Below, one piece after another: positions 1 to 43,379 of a DNA stretch of 64,000 nucleotides. Source of the stretch: Thermococcus bergensis (lineage in GTDB: Archaea > Methanobacteriota_B > Thermococci > Thermococcales > Thermococcaceae); assembly GCF_020386975.1 (NCBI RefSeq), contig NZ_JABFNK010000005.1:558001-622000 (forward strand). Reading direction: 5' to 3'. The notes beneath the pieces were generated by a model, which did not search any database, was not told the DNA's origin, and was given only the letters and a program-made list of their open reading frames with translations. The translations under genes and the position numbers were made by a program. Each line of letters opens with the position of its first letter. The stretch's first letter is position 1.

Positions 1-3000
1 AGACTTCAAAAACCGTATGCGAATTTAATCAAGCCCAACAAATGTGAAGCCTGTGGAAGCAGGAACGTTGAGCTTGACGTTGATAAGAGCACTTTCCTCA
101 ATTTCCAGAGCTTTAGACTCCAAGACAGGCCTGAAAGCCTTAAAGGTGGACAAATGCCCCGTTTTGTTGACGTAATTTTGCTTGACGACCTTGTGGATAT
201 TGCCCTTCCGGGAGATAGAGTGGTTATAACCGGAATTTTGAGGGTTGTTTTAGAGCAAAGGGATAAGAGACCAATATTCCGGAAGATAATAGAGGCAAAC
301 TATGTGGAGCAGTTAAGCAAGGAAATAGAAGAGCTTGAAATAACTCCGGAGGATGAGCAGAAGATTAAGGAGCTTGCAAAAAGGAAGGATATTGTCGATG
401 TAATAGTTGACTCTATTGCTCCTGCTATTTATGGAATGAAAAAGGAAAAACTCGGAATTGCCCTCGCGCTGTTTGGAGGAAACACGAAACAACTCCCAGA
501 TGGGACAAGGCTAAGAGGAGAGAGCCACGTTCTGCTTGTAGGAGATCCTGGAGTAGCTAAGTGTGTTGAATATAATACAGAAGTTGTGCTGTCGGATGGG
601 AGCATTAGACCGATCGGAGAACTCGTTGATGAAGCCATAGAAAAAGCAAAAGAACGCGGAACCTTTGGTGTCGTTGACGATGGCTACTATGCACCCATAG
701 ACCTCGAAATCTATGCCCTCGACGCTTCAACGCTGAAGGTTAGGAGAGTTAAGGCAAACATTGCATGGAAGAGAACCGCTCCAGAGAGAATGTTCAGGAT
801 AAAGACCGCTAGTGGGAGGGAAATAAAGGTAACACCAACACATCCTTTCTTCGTCTTTGATGAAGGAACCTTTAAGACAAGAAAAGCGGAAGAGCTAAAA
901 GTGGGAGATTTTATTGCAGTTCCAAGGGCCATCCCCGCAAATGGAAAACCAGTAAGCCTCAGTGAGGCACCCATTCAAAAACCAAAGACTGCAAAAAGTA
1001 GGCTAGTACTTCCAGAGTTCGCAGACGAAGAGTTCTGGTACATTGTTGGATTGATTACAGGAGAGGGGTACACCCAAAAAAGAGGCAGTAGTGCAACCCT
1101 TTACTTCACTAACAACGATGAAGAGCTGATAGAAAAGGTCAGAGAGTATCTAACCAAAATTGGGCTGACTCCAACCGTAAGAAGCCCTCACAAGGAGAAG
1201 AACGCACGCGAAGTCTATGTATCTAGCATTGAACTTTACAGTCTTCTTGAATGGCTTAAAATCTCCGGCAACTCTGCAGAGAAAAGGGTTCCACCTCAAC
1301 TGTTTAGTGCCAGGGACGTGGACATAAAGGCCTTCCTCAGAGGGTACTTTGATGCCGAGGGAACCGTTGATAAAAGAAGGCCTAAGATAACGGTTGTCTC
1401 TGCGTCAAAAGAGCTTGCCAAGGGTATACAACACCTGTTACTGCGGTTCGGTGTTAAGTCTCAGCTCCATGAAACCGTGAGTAGAGCAACAAATGGAAAG
1501 ATGGGTGAGAAAAAGACGTACTATCGGCTTTTTATAACCGGGGAAGACGCAGTAAAGTTCAGAGACATCATCGGATTCGGGCTCCAGAGAAAGATGGAAG
1601 TTCTTAAGAAAGTGACTCAGAATATCAAATCAAACACGAATGTTGATGTCGTTCCTGGCGTTAGCACTCTTCTCAAAGAACTTAGAAAGAGCGCTGGGCT
1701 CACTCAAAAGGAAATGGGGGTAAATCGTTCCACATATTTGCATTACGAGCGGGGGGATAGGTTACCCAGCAGAGAAAAGCTTGGGGTTATAGCCAGAACC
1801 CTCGAAACACATTTACCCAATTCAGAGGAAGTTAAAGTCCTCAAGCTCCTTGCCAGCTCCGACATATTCTGGGACAGGATAGAAGAGATAGAAGAGTACA
1901 AGCCAAAGCACCCGTGGGTATATGACCTTCAGATTCCTGAGCATCATAACTTCATAGCTAACGATGTCTTTGTTCACAATAGCCAGATACTCCGTTATGT
2001 GGCGAATTTAGCACCGAGGGCTATCTATACCAGTGGGAAGAGCTCAAGTGCTGCTGGTCTATGTGTTGCCCCAGACTCCCTCATAATAACAGAAAACGGC
2101 ACGTGGGAGATTGGAAAGCTCACTGAAGACTGGATTAAAGACATAGGAGCAATTCAATACTCCGAGGGTATTTATTACGCTCCATATCTCGGAGAGAGCT
2201 TCTCGTTCAGCGAAGGAAAAATCAAAAAATCGCCAATGAGCAAAGTGTGGAAACTAAAATCTCCGAGAGAGCTTATCATGTTAAAAACAAACACAGGAAA
2301 AGAAGTTATAACAACTCCCGAGACCCAATTGTTGGTATTCAAAGATGGCAGCTTCAAGTGGAAGAAATCTGAAGATATTCAGCAAGGGGATTATGTAGTA
2401 ACACTTAGAAAGATCGAAGTTGAAGAGAAACCGGTTTATGTTATCGAAATGCTCCAAGATCTTGATGAGCTCGTTTTATATGGGATTAAAAAAGATGTAA
2501 AAAGGTTAATTGAGAAAATAAGAAAAGAAAAATCCATAACAAAGAGAGAACTTGCAAAGATTCTTGGAGTAAATGAGAACATGCTATATCATAACTGGGT
2601 GAATGAGGGAGCAAGAGGCAATATTACAATGAAACACCTGAAGAAGCTCGTTGAGCTTGCAGAAGTGCCGCTTTCATCAATTCATCCCAGAGAGGTTGCT
2701 CTTCAAGATGGAAAAAGAATCAGAATACCCAAGCTCCTTGATGAGAAGCTTGCTTATTTTGTTGGACTAATTGCGGGAGATGGAGATGTATCCCGAGCAG
2801 GATGGGGAATTTCTGTGAGATTCTCTAACAGGAGCAGCGAAATGAGAAGAAAATTCAAGGAACTAGCTGAGTATCTTTTTGGAATAGAAGCTAAGGAAAA
2901 TGCGCAAGAGGATAGAGTTCCAGCAGTGCGCTTTCATTCAAAGGTAGTTGCTCATCTTCTCAAAAAGCTGGGCGTTCCACTTTCACCAAAGTCTGAAAAG

Positions 3001-6000
3001 GTAGATATTCCACCAGAACTCTTTGCAGCACCAAAAGAAGTCTTAGCTGCCTATCTCAGGGGAGTTTTTGATTGTGACGGAACTGTGGTTCTAAGAAAGA
3101 GAGGATCATCGTACATAGAGTTGGACACTACAAGTGAAAAGCTTGCTAAAAAGATTCAGCTGGCACTTCTTCGCTTTGGTATAGTCTCCCACTTAAGGAA
3201 GAGAAACAGAAAAGGATACGTTAGTGAGATAAACGGAAAAAGAGTTATTTCTAAACACGATAGATGGGAGCTCAAGGTATATGGTGAAAACATCATTCAC
3301 TTTGCGAGGGAAATTGGGTTTGAACATCCCGAGAAGAAAGCCCGCCTTGAAGAATTGGTTAGAAAGCTAAGAGCCTCAAAAAGAGACACTAACATCGACG
3401 TTGTTCCTGGTATCGGAGGCTTGCTCCGGAAGATAAGAACCTTCTATGGAATGGGCATTGAAGAAACCTACGGCACAAACTTTGGCTCCGCCATTGAGCA
3501 TGGACGTCCAATATCAAGAAGACTCCTCAAAAGGGTTCTTAGGAACCTTGAGAAAGCTGATATCGAGAGAGTTCCCGTCGAACTGCCCAATGGGCTCAGG
3601 GTTAGAATTGGTGAAGTTATAGAACCAAAAGAAATCGGGCTTAAGAGAGAAGAGTTTTACGAGCTGTTCAAGAGGAATAGAAGTAGAAAAATAGACTACG
3701 CACTCCTTGTAAAAGTTGCAAGAGCCCTTGCAGAGAGAGATGAAAAAGCGTACAGAGAGCTTGTCTGGATTTTAAGCGACGTGACTGCAAAGGAAATGGA
3801 GATACGCGAGAAAATAGAGTTCCTCAGAAAGCTTGTTAACTCGGAGTTGCTCTTTGAGAGAGTCACTGAGAGCAAGAGAATAAAAAGTCTTTACGAATAC
3901 GTCTATGATATCACCGTTGAAGGTTCCCACAGCTTTATTGCTAACGGATTCGTAGTTCACAATACAGCTGCCGCAGTGAGGGATGAATTAACAGGCTCTT
4001 GGGTATTGGAGGCTGGAGTTCTTGTTTTAGCGGATATGGGCATAGCATGTCTTCATCCAGATTCGAGAGTGCTTGTGAACGGCAAATACCTTCCAATAAA
4101 AGAGTTATTTAATGAGGCAAAGTCCTACAAAGCCAAATCTAACGGTGAGATAGTGGATATTCAGGAAGATACTTTCGAAGTTGTCTCATTAAACCTTGAA
4201 AGAATGAAAACTGGTAACTCTTTGGCCACAATCATCAGGAGGAAACAATGGAAAGGAGAACTCGTTAAGCTAAAATTCCGCTCGGGTAATGAACTCCTTC
4301 TTACCCCTGACCACTGGCTCATTGATGGTAAAACATTAGAATGGAAAGAAGCGGGAGAGTTTAAACCGGGTGATACGGTCGTTGCTCCTCTCAAACTCCC
4401 AGAGGTGAAGGAGAAAATCCACATCCTTGACATACTTCCTGAAAACTGGCGGGTTAAATTAACCAAGGAAGAAAAAGAAGAGCTAAGAAAAGAAGTTCTT
4501 AGAAGATTCAAGTCTATTGCAGAATTCAACAGGCACTACGGTATTTCAAAAGACTTCCTATCTGGGAGAGGAGCTATAAAGGTTGGCAAGTTCAGGAAAA
4601 TACTCAAAGATTTCGGCATTTACGAAAAATGGAAGAAGCGTCCCCTGGCTTATGGGCCATATTCAAGAAGAGAAAAGCTTAAGGTCGCATATATAACTCC
4701 AGAAATGGCCTATTTCTTTGGATTTCTGTACGGAGACGGGTGGATTCAAAGAATTGGAGATAGGGTAACACTGCGGATAACCCAATCACTTGTCAATGAA
4801 AAACAGCTCAAAAGGTTAAGAGAGAGTTTTGCATTATTTTATCCCAAAAAACTCAGAGAGTACAGGAGAACTACGTCGAGCATCTTGGCAGGGAACAAAA
4901 TCTCGAGTGAAAGCATAATCTTCTCAGTAAATTCTCCTCTTCTCGGCTACATCTACGAGTACCTCACAAAAGACAATCTAACGAACCTCTTTGGGCTAGA
5001 TGATGAGGCACTTAAAGCATTTGTTGCAGGGGCTCTGGACTCAGACGGTTGTGTATCAATAAAGCGGAGTGATAAAGGAGAAGTTGTCCACGTGGAATTC
5101 CTCCTATCTAATGATATCAGGAAAGATAATGCCTTTGCCATGCTCCTAAGGAGATTTGACGTGTATGCCAGAATTGTAAGAGACAAACGAGAAAACGTTA
5201 ATAGAATACAAATAACCTCTAGGGAGGACGTTAAAAACCTTTTAGAAGCTGTGAAATCTTACAGCATAAAGGTCAAAGAAATCCCTGAAGTTAAACGCCT
5301 TATATCGTCCAAAAGCGACAAATTGCCCTCAGAACCTGTCAAAGAAATTGCGAGGAGGATAAGAGAGGAAATACCAGCTTCAATTCTCCTGAAAAAAGGT
5401 CTTTGGAGTATTATCTATGAGTACTCCAAAGGCATCCGTGTTCCAACTAGGAAACAAATCCATAAACTTCTGGAGAGACTTTCGGATTATCTCAGCCCGG
5501 AAATAAAATTTAAGCTTGAAATCCTAGCAAGAAGAGACTACTTCCTTGACGAAATTGTGGAGGTAGGGAGGATACCATATGAAGGGCATGTTTACGATCT
5601 TTACGTGCCTGTTTATCATAACTTTGTAGCCGAAGGAATAATTGTGCACAACTGCATTGACGAAATAGACAAGATGAGCGATAGGGATAGGAGCTCCATA
5701 CACGAGGCCCTTGAGCAGCAGACCGTTAGTATATCAAAGGCGGGAATCACCGCGACGCTGAACGCAAGAACCACGGTTATAGCCGCGGCCAATCCTAAAT
5801 ATGGAAGGTTCAACAGGATGAAGCCTCTTCCAGAGCAAGTGGACTTGCCTCCAACACTTCTAAGCAGATTTGACCTTATATTCGTTCTTCTCGATGAGCC
5901 AGATGAAAAACTTGACTCTGAGATAGCCGAGCACATACTTAAGGTCAGAAAGGGCGAAGCTGAGGCAATTACTCCGAAGATATCCCACGACCTTATTAAA

Positions 6001-6531
6001 AAGTACATAGCCTATGCAAGAAAGAATATCAAACCGGTGCTCAGCAAGGAGGCAATGGAGGAAATCAAGCGCTACTATGTTAAGATGAGAAGAACAGTGG
6101 GGAGAGGAGGCGACGAGGAAGGAATTAAGCCTATTCCAATCACTGCAAGACAGCTTGAGGCCCTCATAAGGCTTAGCGAGGCTCATGCAAAAATGAGGCT
6201 CAGTGAGATTGTCACAAAAGAAGACGCCAGAGCTGCCATTGAGCTCATGGAGTATACACTTAGGAAAACGGCAATGGACGAAGAAGGAAACATTGATGTC
6301 AGCATCTTGGAGATTGGAAAATCCTCAAAGAAAATCAACAAGATGGACAAGATTCTCAATATAATAAAAGAGCTTCAGGATTTGGAAGACTACGGGGCCC
6401 CTAGGGAAGAGATAATAAAAGAGGCCAGCAAACACGGAATAGGAAAGAGTGAAGTTGAGAAAATATTGGAAGAACTCAAAGCGAACTCAATGATATATGA
6501 ACCGCGCTCGGGCTACTACAAAGTTTTGTGA
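1..6531 (+). CDS. mcm: Replicative DNA helicase MCM (Cdc21), 5'-truncated, with three inteins
   Basis: MCM forms the hexameric ring helicase that unwinds DNA at archaeal replication forks. The reading frame is open from base 1, so the N-terminus (roughly 150 residues) lies outside the window; the ATG at 154 is internal. Visible extein parts in order: the end of the zinc ribbon (CEACGS), the OB-fold segment ending [14 protein letters not shown], the Walker A motif GDPGVAK/SQ, the Walker B motif DEIDKM, the sensor-1 segment [11 protein letters not shown], the arginine-finger segment SRFDLIF and a C-terminal winged-helix domain. The extein in the window is about 534 residues; 1642 residues are intein. 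Each intein sits at or near an ATPase motif, so the helicase should be inactive until all three are spliced out. aIF2-beta follows 46 bases downstream. The intein boundaries are clear because the rejoined extein reads as normal MCM. Confidence 0.97.
562..1980 (+). mobile_element. MCM intein 1, in Walker A, with LAGLIDADG endonuclease
   Basis: This 473-residue intein splits the Walker A motif between GDPGVAK and SQIL. It starts with Cys (CVEYNTEV), has a block B of the TxxH type (TPTHPFFV), and ends HNFIAN...VFVHN with Ser as the first residue of the C-extein. Two LAGLIDADG endonuclease motifs are visible, [11 protein letters not shown] and [12 protein letters not shown]. Between the endonuclease and the C-terminal splicing block is a segment resembling an XRE-type helix-turn-helix ([20 protein letters not shown]), which may help target recognition. 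All splicing residues are present, so it should splice normally. Confidence 0.93.
2062..3963 (+). mobile_element. MCM intein 2, with LAGLIDADG endonuclease and atypical block B
   Basis: This 634-residue intein lies between SSSAAGL and TAAAVRDE, in the segment between Walker A and Walker B. It starts with Cys (CVAPDSLI) and ends IANGFVVHN, followed by Thr. The endonuclease motifs are [12 protein letters not shown] and [12 protein letters not shown]. Block B reads TPETQLLV where most inteins have TxxH, so the usual block B histidine is absent. A helix-turn-helix-like stretch ([20 protein letters not shown]) precedes the endonuclease, and another small basic helical domain follows it, which explains the large size. 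The splice junctions are confirmed by the continuous extein. Confidence 0.92.
4048..5652 (+). mobile_element. MCM intein 3, at Walker B, with LAGLIDADG endonuclease
   Basis: This 535-residue intein is inserted between LADMGIA and CIDEIDKM, directly in front of the Walker B acidic residues. It starts with Cys (CLHPDSRV), has block B TPDHWLID with the expected His, and ends [10 protein letters not shown] before a Cys +1 residue. The endonuclease motifs are [12 protein letters not shown] and [12 protein letters not shown]. All residues needed for standard class 1 splicing are present. Confidence 0.92.
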
Positions 6532-6577
6532 AAAGATTAATAAGGCAGAGATAGAACCTTATAGCGAGGTGAGAAAA

Positions 6578-7000
6578 ATGGAGTACGATTATTATGATTA
6601 TGAGAAGCTTTTGGAAAAAGCATATGACGAACTTCCCGAGAACGTTAAGCACCATACATCGAGATTTGAGGTTCCCGCTGCAATCGTGACAATTGAAGGT
6701 AACAAGACAATAATCGAGAACTTTAGAGACATTGCTGAGGCAATGAACAGGGATCCGAACCACCTGCTCAAGTTTATCCTGAGGGAAGTTGCCACAGCAG
6801 GTGTCTTGGAAGGAAGAAGGGTTGTGTTGCAGGGACGTTTTACCCCATACCTCATAGCGAACAAAATGAAGAAATACCTCAAAGAGTACGTCATCTGTCC
6901 CGTATGTGGCTCTCCAGACACGAAGATCCTCAAGAGAGATCGCTTCCACTTCTTGAAGTGTGAAGCCTGTGGTGCCGAAACACCAATAGAGCACCTCTGA
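6578..7000 (+). CDS. Translation initiation factor aIF2 beta subunit
   Basis: The beta subunit of archaeal initiation factor 2 is part of the GTP-dependent complex that delivers initiator Met-tRNA to the small ribosomal subunit. The 140-residue product has the standard layout: an N-terminal helix ([13 protein letters not shown]), a central alpha-beta domain ([18 protein letters not shown]) and a C-terminal C4 zinc ribbon with CPVC and CEAC pairs. The start at 6578 is chosen because GAGGTGAG lies a few bases upstream and the protein then begins [12 protein letters not shown] at the family's usual length; the frame extends further upstream into the MCM gene. It may be co-transcribed with MCM. 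Confidence 0.95.
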
Positions 7001-7063
7001 GCTCTTTTTCACTCTTTTATTTGTGTGCATGTATTCTTTTAGACATTTTACGACTATGAAAAT

Positions 7064-7075
7064 CCTTTTAAAGGG
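7064..7075 (+). promoter_or_regulatory. TATA-type promoter of the mmd operon
   Basis: CCTTTTAAAGG about 50 bases before the chosen mmdA start fits an archaeal TATA box. Transcription would begin near 7095, leaving a leader of about 28 bases that carries the GGGGG Shine-Dalgarno sequence in front of the ATG at 7124. Confidence 0.5.
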
Positions 7076-7123
7076 GTTTACAAACTACAACTTAGTTAAC
7101 CAATGGTTATGGGGGCAGCTCTT

Positions 7124-8692
7124 ATGACTATGGAAGAAAAAGTGAAGGAACTCTATGAAAAGAAGGAGAAAATTCTTAAGATGGGTGGAGAAGAAAAAAT
7201 CGCAAAGCAGCACGAAAAAGGGAAGCTTACAGCAAGAGAAAGAATCGAAAAGCTCCTTGATCCGGGAAGCTTCGTGGAGCTTGGAATGTTCGTAAAACAC
7301 CGCGGCACAGAATTCGGCCTCGACAAGATGGAACTGCCTGCAGATGGAGTTATTACCGGTTACGGAACCATCGATGGCAGGCTCGTCTTCGTCTACGCCC
7401 AGGATTTCACTGTTATGGGTGGTTCTCTTGGAGAAATGCATGCCGCAAAGATAAAGCGCATCATGGAGCTTGCTCTGGAAGCAGGTGCTCCGGTAATAGG
7501 TCTCAACGACTCCGGTGGAGCAAGAATTCAGGAGGGTGTTGACTCCCTTAAGGGCTATGGTGAAATCTTCAAGATGAACACGATTCTGAGTGGAGTGGTT
7601 CCACAGATTACTGCTATCATGGGTCCCTGTGCAGGTGGAGCAGTTTACAGTCCTGCTATAGGCGACTTTATTCTCATGGTCGACAATCCTGCAAGCTATA
7701 TGTTCATTACCGGTCCTCAGGTAGTAAAGGCCGTCACTGGTGTGGAAGTTTCTCCAATTCAGCTTGGTGGTGCAATGATTCATGCTCAAAAGAGCGGACA
7801 GGCCCACTTAATAGGCAAGAGTGATGAAGAAGTTCTCATGCTCATAAGAAAGTTGCTAAGTTACCTTCCATCAAACAACATGGAAAAGCCACCAAGATAC
7901 CCGACCAACGACCCACCCTTCAGAAAGAGTGAAAAGCTCTATGAGATAGTTCCCGACGATCCCAACAAAGGTTACGATGTGAGGCAGGTCATCTATGAGA
8001 TTGTTGATAGAGATGCCAACGGAAATCCGGATTTCCTCGAAGTACTTCCATACTTCGCTCCAAATGCAGTTGTGGGCTTTGGAAGAATGAACGGGCAGAC
8101 AGTTGGAATTGTGGCAAACAACCCAATCCACCTTGCTGGAGTTCTTGACATAGACAGCTCCGATAAGATTGCACGCTTTGTCAGGACTTGTGACGCCTTT
8201 AACATCCCGATAGTCACCCTCGTTGATGTCCCCGGTTACTTACCCGGAGTTCAGCAGGAATACGGTGGAATCATAAGGCACGGTGCAAAGGTACTCTACG
8301 CTTATTCAGAGGCAACAGTCCCGATGGTTACAGTAATCCTGAGGAAAGCTTATGGTGGAGCTTACTTAGCAATGGGAAGCAAGCACCTCGGTGCAGATTT
8401 TGTCTTTGCCTGGCCAACAGCTGAGATAGCCGTTATGGGTCCAGAAGGGGCAGCGAACATTATCTTCAGGAAGGAAATTGCCAGCGCAGAGAACCCAGAA
8501 GCGGTTAGACAGGAAAAGATAAGGGAGTACAGAGAGAAGTTCGCTAACCCATATGTGGCCGCAAGCAGAGGCTACATAGACGACGTTATCGACCCAGCAG
8601 AGACAAGAGGAAAGATTATCATGGCGTTGGAAGCTTTGGAGAGCAAGCGTGTAAAGCTTCCACCGAAGAAGCACGGCAACATACCGCTGTGA
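7124..8692 (+). CDS. mmdA: Methylmalonyl-CoA decarboxylase alpha subunit (carboxyltransferase)
   Basis: This is the cytoplasmic carboxyltransferase that moves the carboxyl group of methylmalonyl-CoA to the biotin carrier, the first step of a Na+-pumping decarboxylase. The 522-residue protein has the biotin-dependent carboxyltransferase fold: KQHEKGKLTARERI near the N-terminus, GGSLGEMHAAK, the acyl-CoA oxyanion-hole segments NDSGGARIQEGV and GPCAGGAVYSPA, and in the C-half VDVPGYLPG and KAYGGAYLAMGS. ATGs occur at 7103, 7109, 7124 and 7130; 7124 (MTMEEKVKEL) is preferred because GGGGG lies about 8 bases upstream and the promoter would leave almost no leader for 7103. It is followed closely by the other three subunit genes. 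Confidence 0.95.
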   Translation: MTMEEKVKELYEKKEKILKMGGEEKIAKQHEKGKLTARERIEKLLDPGSFVELGMFVKHRGTEFGLDKMELPADGVITGYGTIDGRLVFVYAQDFTVMGGSLGEMHAAKIKRIMELALEAGAPVIGLNDSGGARIQEGVDSLKGYGEIFKMNTILSGVVPQITAIMGPCAGGAVYSPAIGDFILMVDNPASYMFITGPQVVKAVTGVEVSPIQLGGAMIHAQKSGQAHLIGKSDEEVLMLIRKLLSYLPSNNMEKPPRYPTNDPPFRKSEKLYEIVPDDPNKGYDVRQVIYEIVDRDANGNPDFLEVLPYFAPNAVVGFGRMNGQTVGIVANNPIHLAGVLDIDSSDKIARFVRTCDAFNIPIVTLVDVPGYLPGVQQEYGGIIRHGAKVLYAYSEATVPMVTVILRKAYGGAYLAMGSKHLGADFVFAWPTAEIAVMGPEGAANIIFRKEIASAENPEAVRQEKIREYREKFANPYVAASRGYIDDVIDPAETRGKIIMALEALESKRVKLPPKKHGNIPL

Positions 8693-34740: not shown

Positions 34741-35571
34741 TTCACTTTTGATTCTGCTGACCATAAAGGTTCCAATGGTTATGAGCACAAACCCTACTAG
34801 GTGATATACTGTGAATTCTTCCCCAAGGAGGGTTGCAACTCCTATTGCTACTGCGGGAGCAGGTGTTATTATTGCCGTCGCTTTTGAGAGGTTTATCCGC
34901 TTTATTGCAAGGTACCATATCACTTGTCCAAATGAGAGTATTATGCCCTCTGCTACAGCAAGCTTTGAAAACTTAAGCCCAGAGGGGAATGCAAGCAAAA
35001 GAAGCAAAATTCCCCCAAAGGTATTTCTAAATGCTGCTATAAGAAATGGGTTGTATGGGAGTTTCTTTGCTATCACATGCCCGCTCTGCCAGAAGAGGGG
35101 GACTAGCAGGAGGAGTAAATCTCCCTTTCTTGGCACTATTGCTTTACCCTGTGTTATCACTAAAAATAGACCCACAAGGATTGAAAGTGACCAGAAGATT
35201 TGCCCTTTGGCTATTTTTTCCCTCAAGAAAACATATGCAAGAACAAACGAGAAAAGAACTTCTGCCCTTGTTATAAGGGAAGCATTTATCGCGGTACTTA
35301 GTCGAGCTCCATAAGAATAAGCGATATATGCCAGGGCAGTTCCAAACACCCCTACCAAAAATGCTCTTGGAATACACTGTGGATTTTCCTTTACCCCTTT
35401 CCAGCGGGATGTGAGTAAAACGATTGGCCAAAGGATTAAAGAAGCTATGAGGGCAGAAAATGCTGCAAAGCTAAGGGGGTTGGTTGGGTTTGCCTTAATT
35501 ACCACGGGTTCTATTCCATAAAGGAACATACCTAAAAAAGCCAGGAGAGTCCCCTCAGTCTCTTTGTTCAT
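34726..35571 (-). CDS. EamA/DMT family transporter
   Basis: A 281-residue membrane protein with ten hydrophobic helices in two EamA repeats of about 140 residues (GTLLAFLGMFLYGIEPVVIK begins the first, LVPLFWQSGHVIAKKLP the second). The family exports or imports metabolites and amino-acid derivatives. It overlaps the upstream PqqD-like gene by 17 bases, so the two are almost certainly translated together. The ATG at 35571 is favoured over the GTG at 35580 by GGTGG spacing. Confidence 0.8.
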   Translation of the reverse strand: MNKETEGTLLAFLGMFLYGIEPVVIKANPTNPLSFAAFSALIASLILWPIVLLTSRWKGVKENPQCIPRAFLVGVFGTALAYIAYSYGARLSTAINASLITRAEVLFSFVLAYVFLREKIAKGQIFWSLSILVGLFLVITQGKAIVPRKGDLLLLLVPLFWQSGHVIAKKLPYNPFLIAAFRNTFGGILLLLLAFPSGLKFSKLAVAEGIILSFGQVIWYLAIKRINLSKATAIITPAPAVAIGVATLLGEEFTVYHLVGFVLITIGTFMVSRIKSELKTA

Positions 35572-35893
35572 CCCATCCACCTAGGAGAATAAGGTTCCTC
35601 TTGTATAGCTCAAGGATAAAGGTTACAAGTCTCTCATACAATGGTTCGACATTTTCTCCAAATTTTTCCTTCATATTTTTCCCTATTTCTTCTATAGTTC
35701 TTGTGCCGTCACAGAGCTCCCATACGAAGACTCCTATTTCATCTAGTTCTAATCTTCTGTAGTCGCCATGAAGCTTTCTCGCAAGAAAATCCAGTTTGGA
35801 CGTCATGGGGATTAAGAGGTAATACTTTCCATCGATCTTTCTTAACTCGATTTCTTCATTTCTTTTGGGAATAAGCTTGAGATAATTCTCCAT
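35555..35893 (-). CDS. PqqD-like protein (possible orphan RiPP recognition element)
   Basis: A 112-residue protein whose C-terminal 70 residues match the PqqD winged-helix pattern: LELDEIGVFVWELCDGTRTI, then EEIGKNMKEKFG and a helix VTFILELYKRNLI. In peptide-modifying systems this fold binds the leader peptide of the precursor. No radical SAM gene or precursor-like peptide is seen next to it; its partner in the operon is an EamA transporter. The N-terminal 40 residues (LIPKRNEEIELRKIDGKYYL) form an additional strand-rich extension. The ATG at 35893 follows GGTG. Confidence 0.7.
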   Translation of the reverse strand: MENYLKLIPKRNEEIELRKIDGKYYLLIPMTSKLDFLARKLHGDYRRLELDEIGVFVWELCDGTRTIEEIGKNMKEKFGENVEPLYERLVTFILELYKRNLILLGGWDEQRD

Positions 35894-35940
35894 AACTCTA
35901 TTCACCAGCAGAAATGGGGTGAAGAAGTTTATAAGAGTGT

Positions 35941-37818: not shown

Positions 37819-37882
37819 CCTCATGAGTTCATGTTTGGATAAAACCTAGGGTTTAAAAAATTAACTAAAATTATACGGCTCG

Positions 37883-37930
37883 CTGTTAGAATAAGCTAAC
37901 GAATAATATCAGAAACTTTATCCTAACAGT
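37883..37930. repeat. Short imperfect palindrome at the left edge of the RiPP island
   Basis: CTGTTAGAATAA at 37883 is mirrored by TTTATCCTAACAG ending at 37929. A related palindromic stretch occurs at 42182-42239, on the far side of the island. They may be remnants of a small mobile repeat; the similarity (about 70 percent over 50 bases by eye) is suggestive only. Confidence 0.45.
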
Positions 37931-37936
37931 ATTTGA

Positions 37937-37949
37937 TGGGAACTAGGGT
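37937..37949 (-). repeat. Solitary IS982 terminal inverted repeat
   Basis: TGGGAACTAGGGT is identical to the 13-base right end of the two full IS982 copies in this window, but neither the rest of the element nor the other end is present nearby. It is most simply the remnant of a third insertion, located just past the 3' end of the peptidase-like gene. Confidence 0.6.
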
Positions 37950-37979
37950 TCATTTACATAAGCTCTCAATACCCAAAAG

Positions 37980-38558
37980 TTACTTTAATATTTCCACCAA
38001 AAACGCAATCTTATCATTGAAAAACGTATGAATGTTATGAGTCAAAAGTAACTTTAATAAGCTTATGGAGCATGTTTTAAGATTGGATGGATCTAATATT
38101 ATGACTTCGTTCTCTAAGCATATCTCCTTTTTTTCTAAAAATACTCCACATACAGCATGTGAAGCCTCAAAAACACTTTCTCCTTTGTGAAGAAGCAAAA
38201 ATACATATACTTCCCGTTCTGAGAATCCCAGTCCCCTCAATATAGAAGCCTCAAGAATAGAAATTTGAAGACAATTCCCGCATCTTTGGCCTATGGTATT
38301 TAGAGGATGCAACTCATTATTATCTTTAATTGTTATAGTTGGGATGTAGCATATTTCTTTCAGTAGGTCTCTATGTAGCTTTTGAAGTCCTTTTTTATCA
38401 TTCAACTTAATATTAGCAACCAGACGATTTGCAATATCGGGTATAATATACTTTGAAATCGCCAATGGAGGAACTTTGTAAAGTATTATTCTTTGACCAT
38501 TATTGCAAAGAATAACCCTACAAACGTCATCATGGAAGCCGCTAATATAGTCAACCAT
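37980..38558 (-). CDS. Transglutaminase-like Cys-His-Asp protein, putative RiPP leader peptidase
   Basis: A 192-residue protein (numbering from ATG 38558). The core has the order of a transglutaminase/papain-like fold: a Cys in RCGNCLQISILEASILRGLG (Cys96), His in ASHAVCGVFLEKK (His134) and Asp in VIILDPSN (Asp156). This is the triad layout of the B-type cysteine peptidases that cut leader peptides in lasso-peptide clusters. It is the last gene of the minus-strand cluster. The frame is open to ATG 38585; 38558 is favoured because GGAGGGTGG precedes it. Either way the gene overlaps the MFS gene by more than 70 bases, which is unusual; an internal non-ATG start (for example TTG) remains possible. 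Peptidase activity is inference. Confidence 0.6.
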   Translation of the reverse strand: MVDYISGFHDDVCRVILCNNGQRIILYKVPPLAISKYIIPDIANRLVANIKLNDKKGLQKLHRDLLKEICYIPTITIKDNNELHPLNTIGQRCGNCLQISILEASILRGLGFSEREVYVFLLLHKGESVFEASHAVCGVFLEKKEICLENEVIILDPSNLKTCSISLLKLLLTHNIHTFFNDKIAFLVEILK

Positions 38559-39661
38559 GGATCCACCCTCCACAGCGCTCCCCATATTACGGGAGCAAAA
38601 ATCCCAATTAAGCCGGGCAGAGTATTTAATGTGCCATAGGCAGTTGCTAAATACTCTTTTTGATGTTTGGAAGTATAAACGCTATATGCAATGTTTGAGA
38701 GAGCCTCTCCAAAGAGCCCACTTAAAGCCAAGAATATGAGAGAATACGTGGGTGCATATTTGCTTAGGAGAGCAAACAGAGTCATCGTTATGCTATCCCC
38801 GAGGATATCTACAATAAAGGTCTTTTTGGGGCTGAGATAGTCCACCATAAAGCCCGCTACGAAGTACGCTACCAATACGAAAAATCTCGAAGCAGAGAAA
38901 ACATTTACAATTACATCTGAATCGAGTTTCATCCAAGAGTCCAAGTAGGGATAAAGGAAAGTGTTGAAACACGAGCTGATAAATGCAGACAGACAGAAAA
39001 GGAGTGCTAACGGTGCGAGAGGGGTGTTTAACAGTTTTCTGAAGTCAGAATTTTTGATGCTACTTATAATGTTCTTCTTTATCTCTGATGTAACTCCATT
39101 TAATGGACGCTTTTTAGGAAGAGTTTCCACGAGCATCAATCGAAAGAGAGATAAAATAAATAACATCACTAACACGACGTACAAAACATATACAAAACCC
39201 AGCTTTTTAATTATCCAGTTCGTTAACATTGGACCAATAATCCATGCAACTGTGCTGGAGACATGAACCAATGAGAATACCCTACCCCGAATTTTTTCTT
39301 CTGTAGATTCAGCTATAAGTGCTGTAGTACCCGGACTAAAAAAGATTCCTATTGAGTGGAAGAGTATTAATGAAAGCATGATGGCGAGGGGATTTTTCAT
39401 TAAAAGCAGTCCAAGAGTTGGTATCATGCTAAAAACAGACAACACTGCCATGGGTTTTCTCCCGAGACTATCGGCTATTAGTCCTCCAGAAAAGGAAAAG
39501 ATTAAAGATAGGGCACCTGCTATAGACATTGAGAGTGCTAATTCAGAACTTCCCGCTTGATTGTTAACTAGTATAGGTAGGTATATGAAGAAATATGCTC
39601 TCACCATATTGATAGGAAAACCTGTTATTAGAATTATTAAGGGATTGTATTTGGGTTTCAT
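38486..39661 (-). CDS. MFS transporter of the RiPP cluster
   Basis: A 391-residue major facilitator protein with twelve hydrophobic helices, the loop 2-3 motif GGLIADSLGRKPMA and a long central cytoplasmic loop (ETLPKKRPLNGVTSEIKKN). It begins four bases after the radical SAM stop and follows GGTGATG. Its place in the operon suggests export of the mature peptide, or self-protection, but the substrate is not shown by the sequence. Confidence 0.8.
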   Translation of the reverse strand: MKPKYNPLIILITGFPINMVRAYFFIYLPILVNNQAGSSELALSMSIAGALSLIFSFSGGLIADSLGRKPMAVLSVFSMIPTLGLLLMKNPLAIMLSLILFHSIGIFFSPGTTALIAESTEEKIRGRVFSLVHVSSTVAWIIGPMLTNWIIKKLGFVYVLYVVLVMLFILSLFRLMLVETLPKKRPLNGVTSEIKKNIISSIKNSDFRKLLNTPLAPLALLFCLSAFISSCFNTFLYPYLDSWMKLDSDVIVNVFSASRFFVLVAYFVAGFMVDYLSPKKTFIVDILGDSITMTLFALLSKYAPTYSLIFLALSGLFGEALSNIAYSVYTSKHQKEYLATAYGTLNTLPGLIGIFAPVIWGALWRVDPWLTILAASMMTFVGLFFAIMVKE

Positions 39662-39665
39662 TTCA

Positions 39666-40733
39666 TCACCGTAACACTGAAGGATCTATAAATTCATGAG
39701 GAAACACTCCTTCCTCGAACAACTTTTGACATACTGGAAAGGACGCAGTAAATGATTTGTACTCTTCATATGCAAATGCCGGACAAATATTTGCACAGTA
39801 GCTCCTTAGAATACATCCGCTGCAAATTCCTTGAAATTCATCAGGTTTTACTCTACGAAGCTCTCCTAAAAAACCTCTGCCACTATACCATATGTCTCTT
39901 AGGCTCTCTTCTTTTATATTTCCTATCACAGTCTCTGGGTATTCAATTCCTATGCCACATAACGACACTCCTCCATCGGGTAAAATCCCAAGCATTTTTG
40001 TATAGTTGCATGCCATCCTTGAAATGTTTAGGTATCTCCTTCCGTATTTTGCGAGCAGATAATGAGGTACCATAGACCATATTTTGCCAGGATATTTATC
40101 ATATAGCTGGATTAAATACTCTATGAGTGTTTGGTATTGGGAGACAGACAGGGAAATATTATTATGCCTAGCTCGGCCTATTGGGAGTATTGGATTAAAT
40201 TTCACTGCCTTTGCTCCTAAACTCATAATTAAATCCGTTATCTCAAAAATGGAGTGTAAGTTGCGATTGAATACAGAAACTACAACAACTGGGGGTATAC
40301 CTAGATCTCTAAGTTTTGGTATTACATCTAAAACCCTTCTGTATACTCTCTTCCCATGCCTGAACGCATTAAATTCAACTTCTGAGGGAAAATCTAAACT
40401 TAAACTTATGTCGATCTCATATTTTGCGAGCTCTTTTAATAGGGGTGGAGTAATTAGGGTTCCATTGGTTTCCAGCACTGTTTTAACCTTGCTGTTGTTT
40501 GCGACTTTTATAAGGGTTATTGCTAGATCACTTCGCAAAAGAGGTTCTCCTCCAGATATAAAAAGTGTATCAAGACCTAAGTCCAAGGCCTCATTAAAAG
40601 CAATAAGAAAATATTTGTCTTCCAGTTCGACCATAGGATATGTTCTACTAGCATTTATCCAACAGTGCTCACATTGTAGGTTGCATGAACGTGTTAAATA
40701 TACATGCAATATCTCTAGGGGTGGAGCATTCAT
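39666..40733 (-). CDS. Radical SAM/SPASM peptide-modifying enzyme
   Basis: A 355-residue radical SAM protein. The N-terminal CX3CX2C cluster site is TRSCNLQCEHCW (Cys17, 21, 24), followed by the SAM-binding GGEPL (in FISGGEPLLRSDL). The C-terminal SPASM domain has the seven-Cys pattern for auxiliary Fe-S clusters: MACNYTKMLGILPDGGVSLC, then GICSGCILRSYCANIC and a last FPVCQKLFEEG. Enzymes of this design make thioether (sactionine, ranthionine) or carbon-carbon crosslinks in short peptides. It overlaps the upstream RRE gene by 4 bases (ATGA) and has GGAGGC six bases before its ATG. The small Cys-rich gene at 41066-41158 is the obvious substrate. Confidence 0.88.
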   Translation of the reverse strand: MNAPPLEILHVYLTRSCNLQCEHCWINASRTYPMVELEDKYFLIAFNEALDLGLDTLFISGGEPLLRSDLAITLIKVANNSKVKTVLETNGTLITPPLLKELAKYEIDISLSLDFPSEVEFNAFRHGKRVYRRVLDVIPKLRDLGIPPVVVVSVFNRNLHSIFEITDLIMSLGAKAVKFNPILPIGRARHNNISLSVSQYQTLIEYLIQLYDKYPGKIWSMVPHYLLAKYGRRYLNISRMACNYTKMLGILPDGGVSLCGIGIEYPETVIGNIKEESLRDIWYSGRGFLGELRRVKPDEFQGICSGCILRSYCANICPAFAYEEYKSFTASFPVCQKLFEEGVFPHEFIDPSVLR

Positions 40734-41038
40734 TCACATGCCTCCTTATCGTTTTGGAGAAGGCCTAACTTTGACAAATGTTTAATAAACTCTAAAATGT
40801 CTTTGGTTATTATTTCAATGTCAATTTCTTCGTCTATGTCTTTCTTTACGTAATTTGCAATCTCTTTTATAGTTAAAGAGCCATTACTGTACTTTAGGAC
40901 TAACTCCCCCATTTTATTAACCGTAAATATCCTTCCTGTAGAGTAATCATAGCATAATGCATAATCTGAATAAGAAATTATATGGAGTGGTTTTATTTTG
41001 GGCTTATAAAAAGGAGAAAATAGAAGAGACTCTTCCAC
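40730..41038 (-). CDS. PqqD-like RiPP recognition element protein
   Basis: A 102-residue protein with the PqqD pattern: a strand pair (YALCYDYSTGRIFTVNKMGE), a helix-turn stretch (LKYSNGSLTIKEIANYVKKD) and a C-terminal helix (ILEFIKHLSKLGLLQND). Stand-alone PqqD-like proteins bind the leader of the precursor and present it to the radical SAM enzyme. GTG at 41038 follows GGAGGT at 7 bases; an ATG at 41045 in another frame leads only to a 13-codon frame. It lies 27 bases after the precursor gene. Confidence 0.82.
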   Translation of the reverse strand: MEESLLFSPFYKPKIKPLHIISYSDYALCYDYSTGRIFTVNKMGELVLKYSNGSLTIKEIANYVKKDIDEEIDIEIITKDILEFIKHLSKLGLLQNDKEACE

Positions 41039-41065
41039 AGTTCATACCTCCGCTACTGCTTTACT

Positions 41066-41158
41066 TCACGTAACGCTAGGTCCGTTACAACAACCCCCTC
41101 CGGAACATGCCCTAACAATTTTGGTAAGTTCTTCTATTTTCGGCTTTTCATACTTCAT
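41066..41158 (-). CDS. Putative RiPP precursor peptide, 30 residues, Cys/Gly-rich core
   Basis: A very short gene read directly from the minus strand. The charged N-terminal part MKYEKPKIEELTKIVRA looks like a leader helix; the C-terminal part CSGGGCCNGPSVT has three Cys, four Gly and no charged residue, as expected for a modified core. GGAGGTG lies five bases before the ATG, one of the strongest ribosome binding sites in the window, and a PqqD-like gene with a radical SAM/SPASM gene follows at once. The cleavage site is unknown; the boundary near Ala17/Cys18 is a guess from composition. Confidence 0.8.
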   Translation of the reverse strand: MKYEKPKIEELTKIVRACSGGGCCNGPSVT

Positions 41159-41191
41159 CTAACCACCTCCGTTAGTTTTATAATTATTCTA

Positions 41192-41205
41192 TATTATTAT
41201 ATTTA
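41192..41205 (-). promoter_or_regulatory. Probable promoter of the RiPP operon
   Basis: The minus strand upstream of the precursor is very AT-rich (AAATATAATAATATAG). A TATA box here would start transcription near 41170-41175, leaving a leader that holds the GGAGGTG site. The IS982 copy begins about ten bases further upstream at 41216, in or next to where a BRE would lie, so the insertion may have changed promoter strength. A second TATA-like ATTATAAAAC (41174-41183) would start too close to the ATG. Confidence 0.4.
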
Positions 41206-41215
41206 TTTTTTTTGT

Positions 41216-42147
41216 ACCCTAGTTCCCATTAGATCGTTAGAGTTATAAGCACTTAAGTCTTTTGGTTGATTGGTGGTTGTTATGAACTTTCAGCAGGAAA
41301 TCCTGATCATAAAATCCGAAATCTATCCGATAATCAGCAAACACTACCCGAAAAACACTCACAGGGAAATAATCAGCCTCTACGACCTAATAACCTTCGC
41401 AATACTAGCACACTTGCACTTTAACGGAGTTTACAAGCACGCTTACAGAGTCCTAATCGAAGAAATGAAGCTGTTCCCCAAAATCAGGTACAACAAACTA
41501 ACAGAACGCTTGAACAGGCACGAAAAACTCCTGCTCCTAGCGCAGGAAGAATTATTCAAAAAACACGCCAGAGAATACGTTAGAATACTGGACTCAAAGC
41601 CCATTCAGACCAAGGAGTTGGCCAGAAAAAACAGGAAGGATAAGGAGGGTTCTTCAGAAGTCATCTCTGAAAAGCCCGCAGTTGGGTTTGTTCCCTCTAA
41701 AAAAAGTTTTACTATGGGTACAAGCTGACCTGTTACTCTGATGGAAATTTGCTGGCTTTGCTGTCCGTTGATCCGGCGAATAAGCATGATGTGAGTGTTG
41801 TCAGGGAAAAGTTCTGGGTGATTGTTGAGGAGTTTTCTGGCTGTTTTCTGTTTTTGGATAAGGGTTACGTTAGTAGAGAACTTCAGGAGGAATTCCTGAA
41901 GTTTGGCGTTGTTTACACGCCGGTGAAGCGGGAGAATCAGGTTAGTAATCTGGAGGAGAAGAAGTTTTACAAGTACTTGTCTGACTTTCGCAGGAGGATT
42001 GAGACTTTGTTTTCGAAGTTTTCTGAGTTTCTTCTGAGGCCGAGCAGGAGTGTTAGTTTGAGGGGGTTAGCTGTCAGGATTTTAGGGGCGATTCTGGCCG
42101 TGAATCTGGACAGATTATACAACTTCACAGGTGGTGGGAACTAGGGT
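41216..42147 (+). mobile_element. IS982-family insertion sequence, copy 2
   Basis: A 932-bp element, identical by eye to copy 1, with the same 13-bp inverted ends and a 7-bp target duplication TTTTTGT (41209-41215 and 42148-42154). It lies 57 bases upstream of the precursor peptide start and points away from it. Perfect identity of the two copies and intact target duplications point to recent transposition. Confidence 0.93.
41282..42144 (+). pseudogene. IS982-family transposase, copy 2, same A7 frameshift
   Basis: Same gene as in copy 1, with the first frame ending at 41728 and the second continuing to 42144. The frame break is again at seven A (41699-41705). Restoring one A gives SKKKFYYGYKLTCYSD across the join. 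See copy 1 for motifs. Confidence 0.85.
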
Positions 42148-42181
42148 TTTTTGTTAACTTTTAGTTGTTAACTTTTAGAAT

Positions 42182-42239
42182 ACTGTTAAGATAAGCTGAT
42201 GGGCAATACTAGAAGTCTTGCTTAATATTCTAAACAGTG
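42182..42239. repeat. Short imperfect palindrome on the right side of the RiPP island
   Basis: ACTGTTAAGATAAGC is mirrored imperfectly by the stretch ending ATATTCTAAACAGT. It resembles the palindrome at 37883-37930 in both arms. Just before it, TTGTTAACTTTTAG is repeated twice in tandem (42151-42178). The 300-base gap 42155-42461 otherwise holds no convincing gene. Confidence 0.4.
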
Positions 42240-42461
42240 AATTCTTAGGCATCAAAGGTAAATTTCCGAACGAATAGTGTCTATTGGGATTACTACACAA
42301 AATTCACGAAGCCTAGAATTCAAAGTTATTTTCTAACCTCAAACCAGCCCTCTCCTCTTAGCGTTTTTTCTTTCCAGCAGGGAAGTGTTATCTTTGAGTA
42401 TTCCAAATTTGGATCGTATACAACTACAACTTTATATACTTAAAATTTTTTAGACTCCAAA

Positions 42462-43304
42462 TTAGAGCAGTGAATAGACTTTGTACGCCCTAATCTGTCC
42501 TGTATAGAAATCTTTCACGTATACCGTTTTGTTTACCACTACTACCTCTCTTGGGGTGTAATTTAACCTCTTGCATGCAAGCTTTATTAAATTCTTAGTA
42601 TAAACGCACAGTCCTCTTTTTTCATTCCCCTGGGGATTCACGAAGGAATACACTACTGCAACATACTTTTCTCCAGCTCCTACTCTAACAAGCATTCTTA
42701 AATTTTCCCCTTTCCAAGGTTTTGCAGTCCTGATACCTTTTTCGAGTTTGTGCTCCTTTAGTAGATAAACATACCCCTCAGTAGTGGCAACATAGCTTAA
42801 ATCTCCTTTATCCTCAACGTCTGTTATTGATCCGGTTTTTGGGCAGAAATATCTGAAATTTCCATCTTCTACTTCAATCCAATAGACACACCCATCCCCA
42901 AGTATAATTTTCCCTTCATGATAAGACTCAAACCAGAGCCCCCTCCCAAGGTATCTTTCCCACTTTTTGTTCAATGCACTATCAAGAAAGACTATGTCAG
43001 TGCTGGGGGCATGAGGGTCTCCGGGATATCCAGCTATTAGGAGAACTCCCTCATGAAAGCAGAAGTATTCACCAAAGAACCCCTTAAGCGTGTATGTCTT
43101 CCCATTCACAGTAAAATTTACATAATTTTCCAGCCAGTTTCTCACTTCTTTAACCTCAATTTTTGCTGGACATTTCTCTAAATTTTCCTCTCCAAATTTG
43201 GGCATATTTTCGACTCTGGTTTCAATAATAATAGCCCTTGAGAAAAATACTGCATAGATTAGAAGAACAAGAACTGCTCCAAGGAGATACTTTTTAGGTC
43301 TCAT
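42462..43304 (-). CDS. Membrane-anchored extracellular protein of unknown function
   Basis: A 280-residue protein with a basic N-terminus and one signal-anchor helix (YLLGAVLVLLIYAVFFSRAI), followed by an external domain with several Cys (six to eight) and repeated short strand motifs (YVNFTVNGKTYTLKGFFG; GCVYWIEVEDGNFRYFC; GYVYLLKEHKLEKG) that recall a beta-propeller. The ATG at 43304 follows GGGGGTCTGAG. No family was recognised. It is divergent from the P-loop gene. Confidence 0.6.
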   Translation of the reverse strand: MRPKKYLLGAVLVLLIYAVFFSRAIIIETRVENMPKFGEENLEKCPAKIEVKEVRNWLENYVNFTVNGKTYTLKGFFGEYFCFHEGVLLIAGYPGDPHAPSTDIVFLDSALNKKWERYLGRGLWFESYHEGKIILGDGCVYWIEVEDGNFRYFCPKTGSITDVEDKGDLSYVATTEGYVYLLKEHKLEKGIRTAKPWKGENLRMLVRVGAGEKYVAVVYSFVNPQGNEKRGLCVYTKNLIKLACKRLNYTPREVVVVNKTVYVKDFYTGQIRAYKVYSLL

Positions 43305-43379
43305 CTCAGACCCCCACAAAGGCGTTCCAACCATATAGTTAATAACATCAAAACCCAAATATCTTTTGGTGACAAAGAA

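Follow-up and report, generated by a model that had tools for sequence, protein, structure and literature searches.

A probable radical SAM RiPP gene cluster beside EF-1alpha in Thermococcus bergensis, likely carried on a mobile island

The window analyzed here, a 64,000-nt stretch of the Thermococcus bergensis genome (contig NZ_JABFNK010000005.1, 558,001-622,000), contains five minus-strand open reading frames (ORFs) that lie head to tail over ~3.2 kb (37980-41158). We read them, with a probability of about 80%, as the core of a mobile island for the biosynthesis of a ribosomally synthesized and post-translationally modified peptide (RiPP). A precursor with a leader, a PqqD-like RiPP recognition element (RRE), and a SPASM radical S-adenosylmethionine enzyme (rSAM) are encoded together, and assignment to the broad class of RRE-dependent, radical-SAM-modified RiPPs is well supported. 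Very likely, the five-gene kit makes, cross-links, and exports a small Cys-rich peptide. Its genes are as follows:

41066-41158, minus strand: precursor peptide of 30 aa, with the Shine-Dalgarno (SD) sequence GGAGGTGG before its ATG
40730-41038, minus strand: PqqD-type RiPP recognition protein (RRE) of 102 aa, after a 27-base gap from the peptide gene
39666-40733, minus strand: putative SPASM radical SAM peptide maturase, ScmF-like, of 355 aa, overlapping the PqqD gene by 4 bases
38486-39661, minus strand: major facilitator superfamily (MFS) transporter of 391 aa, presumed exporter/immunity protein, after a 4-base gap from the rSAM gene
37980-38585, minus strand: transglutaminase-like Cys-His-Asp protein of 201 aa (start codon uncertain), candidate leader peptidase, overlapping the MFS gene by 100 bases

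An earlier note, made from the DNA letters alone, had described these ORFs as an apparently complete RiPP cluster. Positions and spacing of all five were borne out, and its RiPP reading is supported; a PqqD gene beside enzymes and transporters has been described as a strong indicator of such clusters (PMC7470986). Completeness holds for the gene set, the type of cross-link, leader removal, and activity still being predictions. The insertion sequence (IS) upstream of the cluster, the transposon-derived ends of the island, and its near-identity in four genomes, all described below, are additions to that account.

The precursor, MKYEKPKIEELTKIVRACSGGGCCNGPSVT, is proposed to consist of the leader MKYEKPKIEELTKIVRA and the core CSGGGCCNGPSVT, with a predicted boundary between them. 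It combines a Y-E-x-P-K leader motif with a CxGG...CCN core and matches no known precursor family. Comparisons covered 396 archaeal genomes, 94 Thermococcaceae genomes, and 13 genomes of the genus (G-codes; L-codes designate loci in them, and G000 is the genome of the window itself). When the 667 window ORFs of 20-60 aa were scored against the precursors of other Thermococcaceae clusters, the 30-mer came first (42, the next reaching 32), and its score was attained by 18 of 5000 shuffles. The motif Y-E-x-P-K-[IV] is common to the 30-mer, the G057 peptides (PEYELPKVRVLSEEGVQPEGCFGGSISDPCCND; SKYEPPKVISLSEDDCEPTGCPGGCINAQCCFD), and one G153 peptide; the CxGG...CC core is common to the 30-mer and the G057 pair. 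The 94 genomes contain seven occurrences of a DNA pattern composed of an SD, an ATG, and YExPK. All seven lie directly upstream of an rSAM/PqqD cluster, and the reversed-pattern control gave three matches. As the rSAMs of those clusters branch deeply apart from the window rSAM, the shared leader is not simply due to recent copying of one cluster. The link between enzyme and Cys-rich peptide anticipated by the earlier note thus recurs in other Thermococcaceae PqqD/rSAM clusters, whose Cys-rich peptides carry the same YExPK leader motif. It recurs also in G102, whose rSAM is the closest relative within the phylum; there, a cassette like SynChlorMet (SCM) includes a ScmA-like Cys-rich peptide.

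The 102-aa protein matches PF05402 with 26.9 bits, above the cut-off of 23.4. A structure model built from an alignment of eight PqqD proteins (mean predicted local distance difference test score, pLDDT, 84.7) was compared with the PDB by Foldseek. The best matches were TbiB1 with bound leader (5v1u, 5v1v), PqqD (5sxy), and a leader-bound lasso B1 protein (6jx3); next came two enzymes that contain an RRE, TruD and 5why/5wgg (sactipeptide thioether formation). The identity of this protein as an RRE is well supported, as is that of the rSAM, and the model matches directly support leader binding as its predicted role. An orphan PqqD-domain protein (35555-35905, minus strand; 45.8 bits) adjoins rpsJ and EF-1alpha in the window. 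We rejected it as a member of the cluster, as it is kept beside these two genes in relatives lacking the cluster. Most of the genus retains it, as do many Thermococcaceae irrespective of the RiPP cluster, and no partner enzyme is evident.

The 355-aa enzyme matches the Pfam families Radical_SAM (PF04055, 77 bits) and SPASM (PF13186, 31 bits for a cut-off of 21.5). It carries CX3CX2C at 17-24, GGEP at 61, and seven SPASM cysteines (242, 259, 304, 307, 313, 317, and 335). Its best NCBIfam match is ScmF, with 171.8 bits for a cut-off of 400, and no NCBIfam equivalog cut-off was reached. Among the AlbA, SkfB, StsB, and PapB profiles none scored above its cut-off, AlbA, StsB, and PapB remaining far below. 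The closest sequences with solved structures are PqqE and SkfB. A tree of 26 rSAMs groups the window enzyme in a clade of four (support 97/93), together with a ScmF-like protein of G102, the enzyme of L058 in G255, which is followed by an MFS gene, and that of L059 in G098. G102, which belongs to the same class, encodes ScmC-, ScmD-, ScmE-, and ScmF-like proteins and a Cys-rich peptide, MRPVYKPPMMVDLISPDKMVANTCSNGSGSDNSCSNGDDGGFVY, with a weak match to ScmA (E = 0.002). Judged by sequence, the window enzyme would modify the 30-aa peptide; thioether formation is a reasoned guess based on the class of the enzyme and the abundance of Cys in the core.

Two other assignments of the enzyme were weighed at this point. 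NirJ2 and AhbD match it over its full length with ~124 bits, as might be expected if the 30-aa ORF were a chance occurrence and the enzyme acted on a non-peptide substrate, for example, a heme precursor. However, ScmF scores 47 bits higher, a discrete PqqD RRE is present in the operon, and the 30-mer, with its strong SD, tops the 667 ORFs in precursor similarity. We therefore rejected a heme-type enzyme, which ScmF outscores, and give a chance ORF next to such an enzyme a very small probability. The known non-peptide family that the earlier note had allowed for did not emerge, the best NCBIfam match being an enzyme of RiPP cassettes (172 bits vs. ~124 for NirJ2/AhbD). Alternatively, the genes could specify a peptide-derived redox cofactor of the pyrroloquinoline quinone (PQQ) or mycofactocin type, as PqqD plus a SPASM rSAM is the logic of PQQ synthesis and PqqE is the closest solved-structure sequence. 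We consider this improbable: PqqE (87 bits of 381) and mycofactocin (73 of 265) score far below the NCBIfam cut-offs and PqqD (22.8 of 46) also falls short, the core lacks a Glu-Tyr or Val-Tyr pair, and the island, accessory in its distribution, contains neither further cofactor genes nor a dependent dehydrogenase.

The 391-aa protein matches MFS_1 with 114.6 bits and probably serves as an exporter; MFS genes also adjoin the rSAM gene in L058, L062, and L106. The 201-aa protein has a putative triad, C105/H143/D165, in the order expected for transglutaminase-like enzymes. A PDB sequence search with it found nothing, and among the 396 archaeal genomes strong matches occur only in the carriers of the cluster and in G073, which belongs to another genus. 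In G073, torn and degraded pieces of the rSAM and transglutaminase-like genes lie on two contigs beside TnpB-type elements. Both genes have ~91% DNA identity with those of the window (dS ~0.25), and their dN/dS ratios are 0.215 (rSAM) and 0.203 (transglutaminase-like). The equal dS and the dN/dS values of ~0.2 show that both genes were retained and moved jointly. Both proteins evolved under purifying selection and are equally old, so the transglutaminase-like ORF is a genuine gene that moves together with that of the rSAM. Together with its weak family match, the triad residues and the operon linkage make it a candidate for leader removal. L065 (861-2541) in G098, a relative from the same class, encodes a distinct transglutaminase-like protein right beside a SPASM rSAM and close to an HprK-like gene; its similarity to the window protein is only weak (E = 0.026).

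A PqqD-type protein whose model comes closest to lasso B1 structures, encoded with a transglutaminase-like Cys protein, could also suggest a lasso-like system in which the two act as B1 and B2. However, the island encodes no Asn-synthetase-like cyclase, the core CSGGGCCNGPSVT offers no Asp or Glu for ring closure, and B2 profiles find no match. This is the least probable of the alternatives considered, and only leader handling of the B1/B2 kind survives from it, as an analogy.

The rSAM is 100% identical (rounded) in 4 of the 13 genus genomes, and in all four carriers the cluster occupies the same position upstream of EF-1alpha. It lies within a near-identical block whose ends and insertions are listed here:

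37847-42550, no strand: near-identical block with the inserted island as its core (four-genome comparison, IS982 excluded)
37883-37933, plus strand: left-end remnant of an IS6-type miniature inverted-repeat transposable element (MITE), an imperfect palindrome CTGTTAGAATAAGC...CTTTATCCTAACAGTATT (alignment to the G007 MITE 52; best of 300 shuffles 33)
42180-42237, plus strand: right-end IS6-type MITE remnant, ATACTGTTAAGATAAGCTGATGGGCAATACTAGAAG..., oriented like the left one (alignment to the G007 MITE 66; best of 300 shuffles 34)
41216-42147, plus strand: IS982-family insertion sequence with the terminal inverted repeats ACCCTAGTTCCCA/TGGGAACTAGGGT (IS982 profile match)
37934-37950, plus strand: solo IS982-like terminus TGATGGGAACTAGGGTT within the identical block (repeat analysis)

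Without IS982, the block (~3.8 kb) contains two substitutions across the four genomes, and the flanks differ between carriers by a few per cent up to ~25%, depending on the pair and the side. The length of the identical tract also varies by pair: the window and G012 are nearly identical to ~44.8 kb, and divergence between the window and G002 sets in at 42.55 kb. Such a near-identical tract of pair-dependent length within diverged flanks points to recent transfer by recombination in the flanks. Spread at a single locus fits homologous recombination of this kind, and the data suggest that the island spread recently between Thermococcus-type species. Contamination was rejected as the source of the identity: two genomes, each assembled as a single contig, have this block at one and the same locus, and they differ in the divergence of their flanks. 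A scan of genome contigs gave as sole match a near-identical copy in Thermococcales archaeon 44_46. A virus-borne cluster was rejected, as no relative was found among viral contigs, and so was a plasmid-borne one: plasmid rSAM matches are distant (28-30%), no PqqD or small precursor is listed at the best of these loci (Rhizobium), and no plasmid matches the transglutaminase-like or MFS protein.

In the relatives G004 and G006-G011, EF-1alpha has no adjoining cluster. Alignment with the empty site of G006 stops at 37876 and restarts at 42231, with a 3-bp gap; similar junctions with empty sites were seen. The junction in G006 is thus located within 3 bp, and the island as a whole shows no clear target duplication around it. 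Both island ends are 50- to 60-bp imperfect palindromes that align to the ends of full IS6-type elements, of which the window's genome has many copies; the end of one such element, L070, matches the right-end remnant over 24 bases. The label "IS6-type" reflects our reading of the transposase in L070 and L107, not a profile test. Adjoining the island, a gene for a 298-aa membrane-anchored protein (42462-43358, minus strand) is intact in some relatives, stop-riddled in G002 and G011, and fragmented in G004, which marks the site as a hotspot of decay.

The IS982-family element is flanked by target site duplications (TTTTTGT, 41209-41215 and 42148-42154) and is located 50 bp upstream of the start codon of the precursor gene. 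Of the four carriers, only the window's genome has it. An AT-rich promoter-like stretch and the SD of the precursor gene are still in place, the upstream control DNA being displaced by the element. Its transposase gene (41270-42144, plus strand) is split in two frames at a poly-T run around 41705, which may represent a pseudogene, a programmed frameshift, or a sequencing error.

Combining these observations, we propose the following mechanism. The 30-aa peptide would be made first, and its leader YEKPKIEELTKIVRA, with YEKPKI, would be held by the PqqD-type RRE, which would present the bound peptide to the SPASM radical SAM enzyme. Radical chemistry on SAM could then introduce at least one cross-link, most likely a Cys thioether, in the core CSGGGCCNG. 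Leader removal might fall to the transglutaminase-like Cys protein, acting as lasso B2 proteins do; the MFS protein would export the product, possibly with a function in self-protection. Most likely the product has an extracellular site of action, where it would probably serve as an archaeocin directed at related strains. With IS6-type MITEs at both ends and a single site adjoining EF-1alpha, the island would have passed recently between Thermococcus-type species.

An antagonistic role is favoured by the patchy presence, the recent spread, and the decay of the cluster. The product could instead serve in signalling, carry metal, or be imported or cycled by the MFS protein. Three Cys with Gly could chelate metal, the direction of MFS transport is not readable from sequence, and no immunity gene is evident. 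We consider a non-antagonistic function unlikely, as patchiness (4 of 13 genus genomes), recent interspecies transfer, and decay elsewhere fit a conflict gene better than a housekeeping function. The fully specified form of the antagonistic proposal is tentative, at somewhat less than even odds: a bacteriocin-type RiPP of hyperthermophiles whose enzyme set is new (ScmF-like SPASM rSAM, discrete RRE, a new family of transglutaminase-like leader peptidases, MFS exporter), on an island bordered by IS6-type MITEs and carried in a sweep through several Thermococcus-type species, by recombination beside EF-1alpha, one carrier having been hit by IS982 in the control region.

Several observations weigh against reading the genes as a working mobile RiPP island. 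The YExPK pattern was built from these same peptides, its informative part being the absence of other matches. No intact diverged homologue of the precursor from the same cluster is available for comparing core conservation. For the 201-aa protein, Transglut_core scores 19.6 bits, below the cut-off of 23, lasso B2 profiles give no match, and a single-sequence model is useless (pLDDT 36.6). A dedicated immunity gene is not evident in the island, no product of the cluster is known, and IS982 upstream of the precursor may have altered or silenced expression in this genome.

Predicted rSAM RiPP clusters of archaea have been listed and few of their products are known (PMC12144867). In the open-access literature, subscription papers and preprints being outside the search, we found no paper on radical-SAM RiPPs of Thermococcales. 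Clusters combining rSAM and RRE were already known; what is new here is the combination of genes, their position outside the named families, and the recent spread. A single operon offers precursor, recognition protein, maturase, exporter, and candidate protease as a testable system. That the cluster is nearly identical across species whose flanking DNA has diverged suggests that its product was recently under selection, and the question of what hyperthermophiles fight with becomes directly testable. The enzymes should be heat-stable and handy for anaerobic radical SAM biochemistry.

A PqqD scan of the 94 Thermococcaceae genomes identified other cluster types, several of them with short ORFs and good ribosome binding sites upstream:

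L104 (G057) 3814-7458, L105 (G031), and L108 (G153): second type, rSAM-PqqD-390-aa protein-ABC exporter
L106 (G068) 456-4243 and L107 (G007) 4832-8347: third type, rSAM-PqqD-rSAM-MFS
L109 (G012) 3353-4957 and L110 (G000 C4) 3871-6507: fused PqqD-rSAM with ABC genes, precursor MEQTKPVYDMSLKVGGGIVEPYDKWCAQCLINIPLPF

The 390-aa protein of the second type has no Pfam match and appears ASKHA-like by eye. G057 encodes two different Cys-rich precursors in a row, and the G068 precursor contains the module Y[IV]PPTI..R.GPICAPEAHW twice. In the G007 copy, the first rSAM is broken and IS6-type and IS982 remnants flank the locus. The fused PqqD-rSAM in the window's own genome is apparently interrupted by an insertion, near the ends of two contigs. 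Like the window cluster, these clusters (G057, G031, G153; G068, G007; G012) have PqqD, a SPASM rSAM, an exporter, and a short Cys-rich precursor, with the YExPK leader of the window peptide in G057 and G153. They differ in that their rSAMs fall in other, deeply separated branches of the tree and in having ABC exporters and the 390-aa protein, two rSAMs, or a fused PqqD-rSAM; a transglutaminase-like protein was not seen adjoining them.

Among known systems, SCM (NCBIfam TIGR04248-04252: ScmA, C, D, E, F) has the proteins nearest to the window rSAM (ScmF) and PqqD (ScmD). It shares a short Cys-rich precursor with a (Y)xxKPxxxxL-type leader, and the same-class relative G102 has an SCM-like set. 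However, ScmF scores 171.8 of 400 bits and ScmD 25.3 of 100, and the island has MFS and transglutaminase-like genes and lacks a ScmC kinase-like gene and a second rSAM (ScmE). A true SCM cassette was rejected, all scores being under the cut-offs. Lasso systems resemble the cluster in leader handling, as the PqqD model matches leader-bound B1 and a transglutaminase-like Cys-His-Asp protein is encoded in the same operon; they differ by their cyclase and by the acceptor Asp/Glu, both missing here, and B2 profiles do not match the window protein. Compared with sactipeptides and ranthipeptides (subtilosin AlbA, SkfB, CteB, PapB), the window RRE is a separate protein and the AlbA, StsB, and PapB profiles score far below cut-off. 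The likeness lies in the RRE with a SPASM rSAM, the Cys-containing core, the RRE of 5why/5wgg found by Foldseek, and SkfB among the closest solved structures; with three Cys in the predicted core, thioethers of the sactipeptide or ranthipeptide type are possible.

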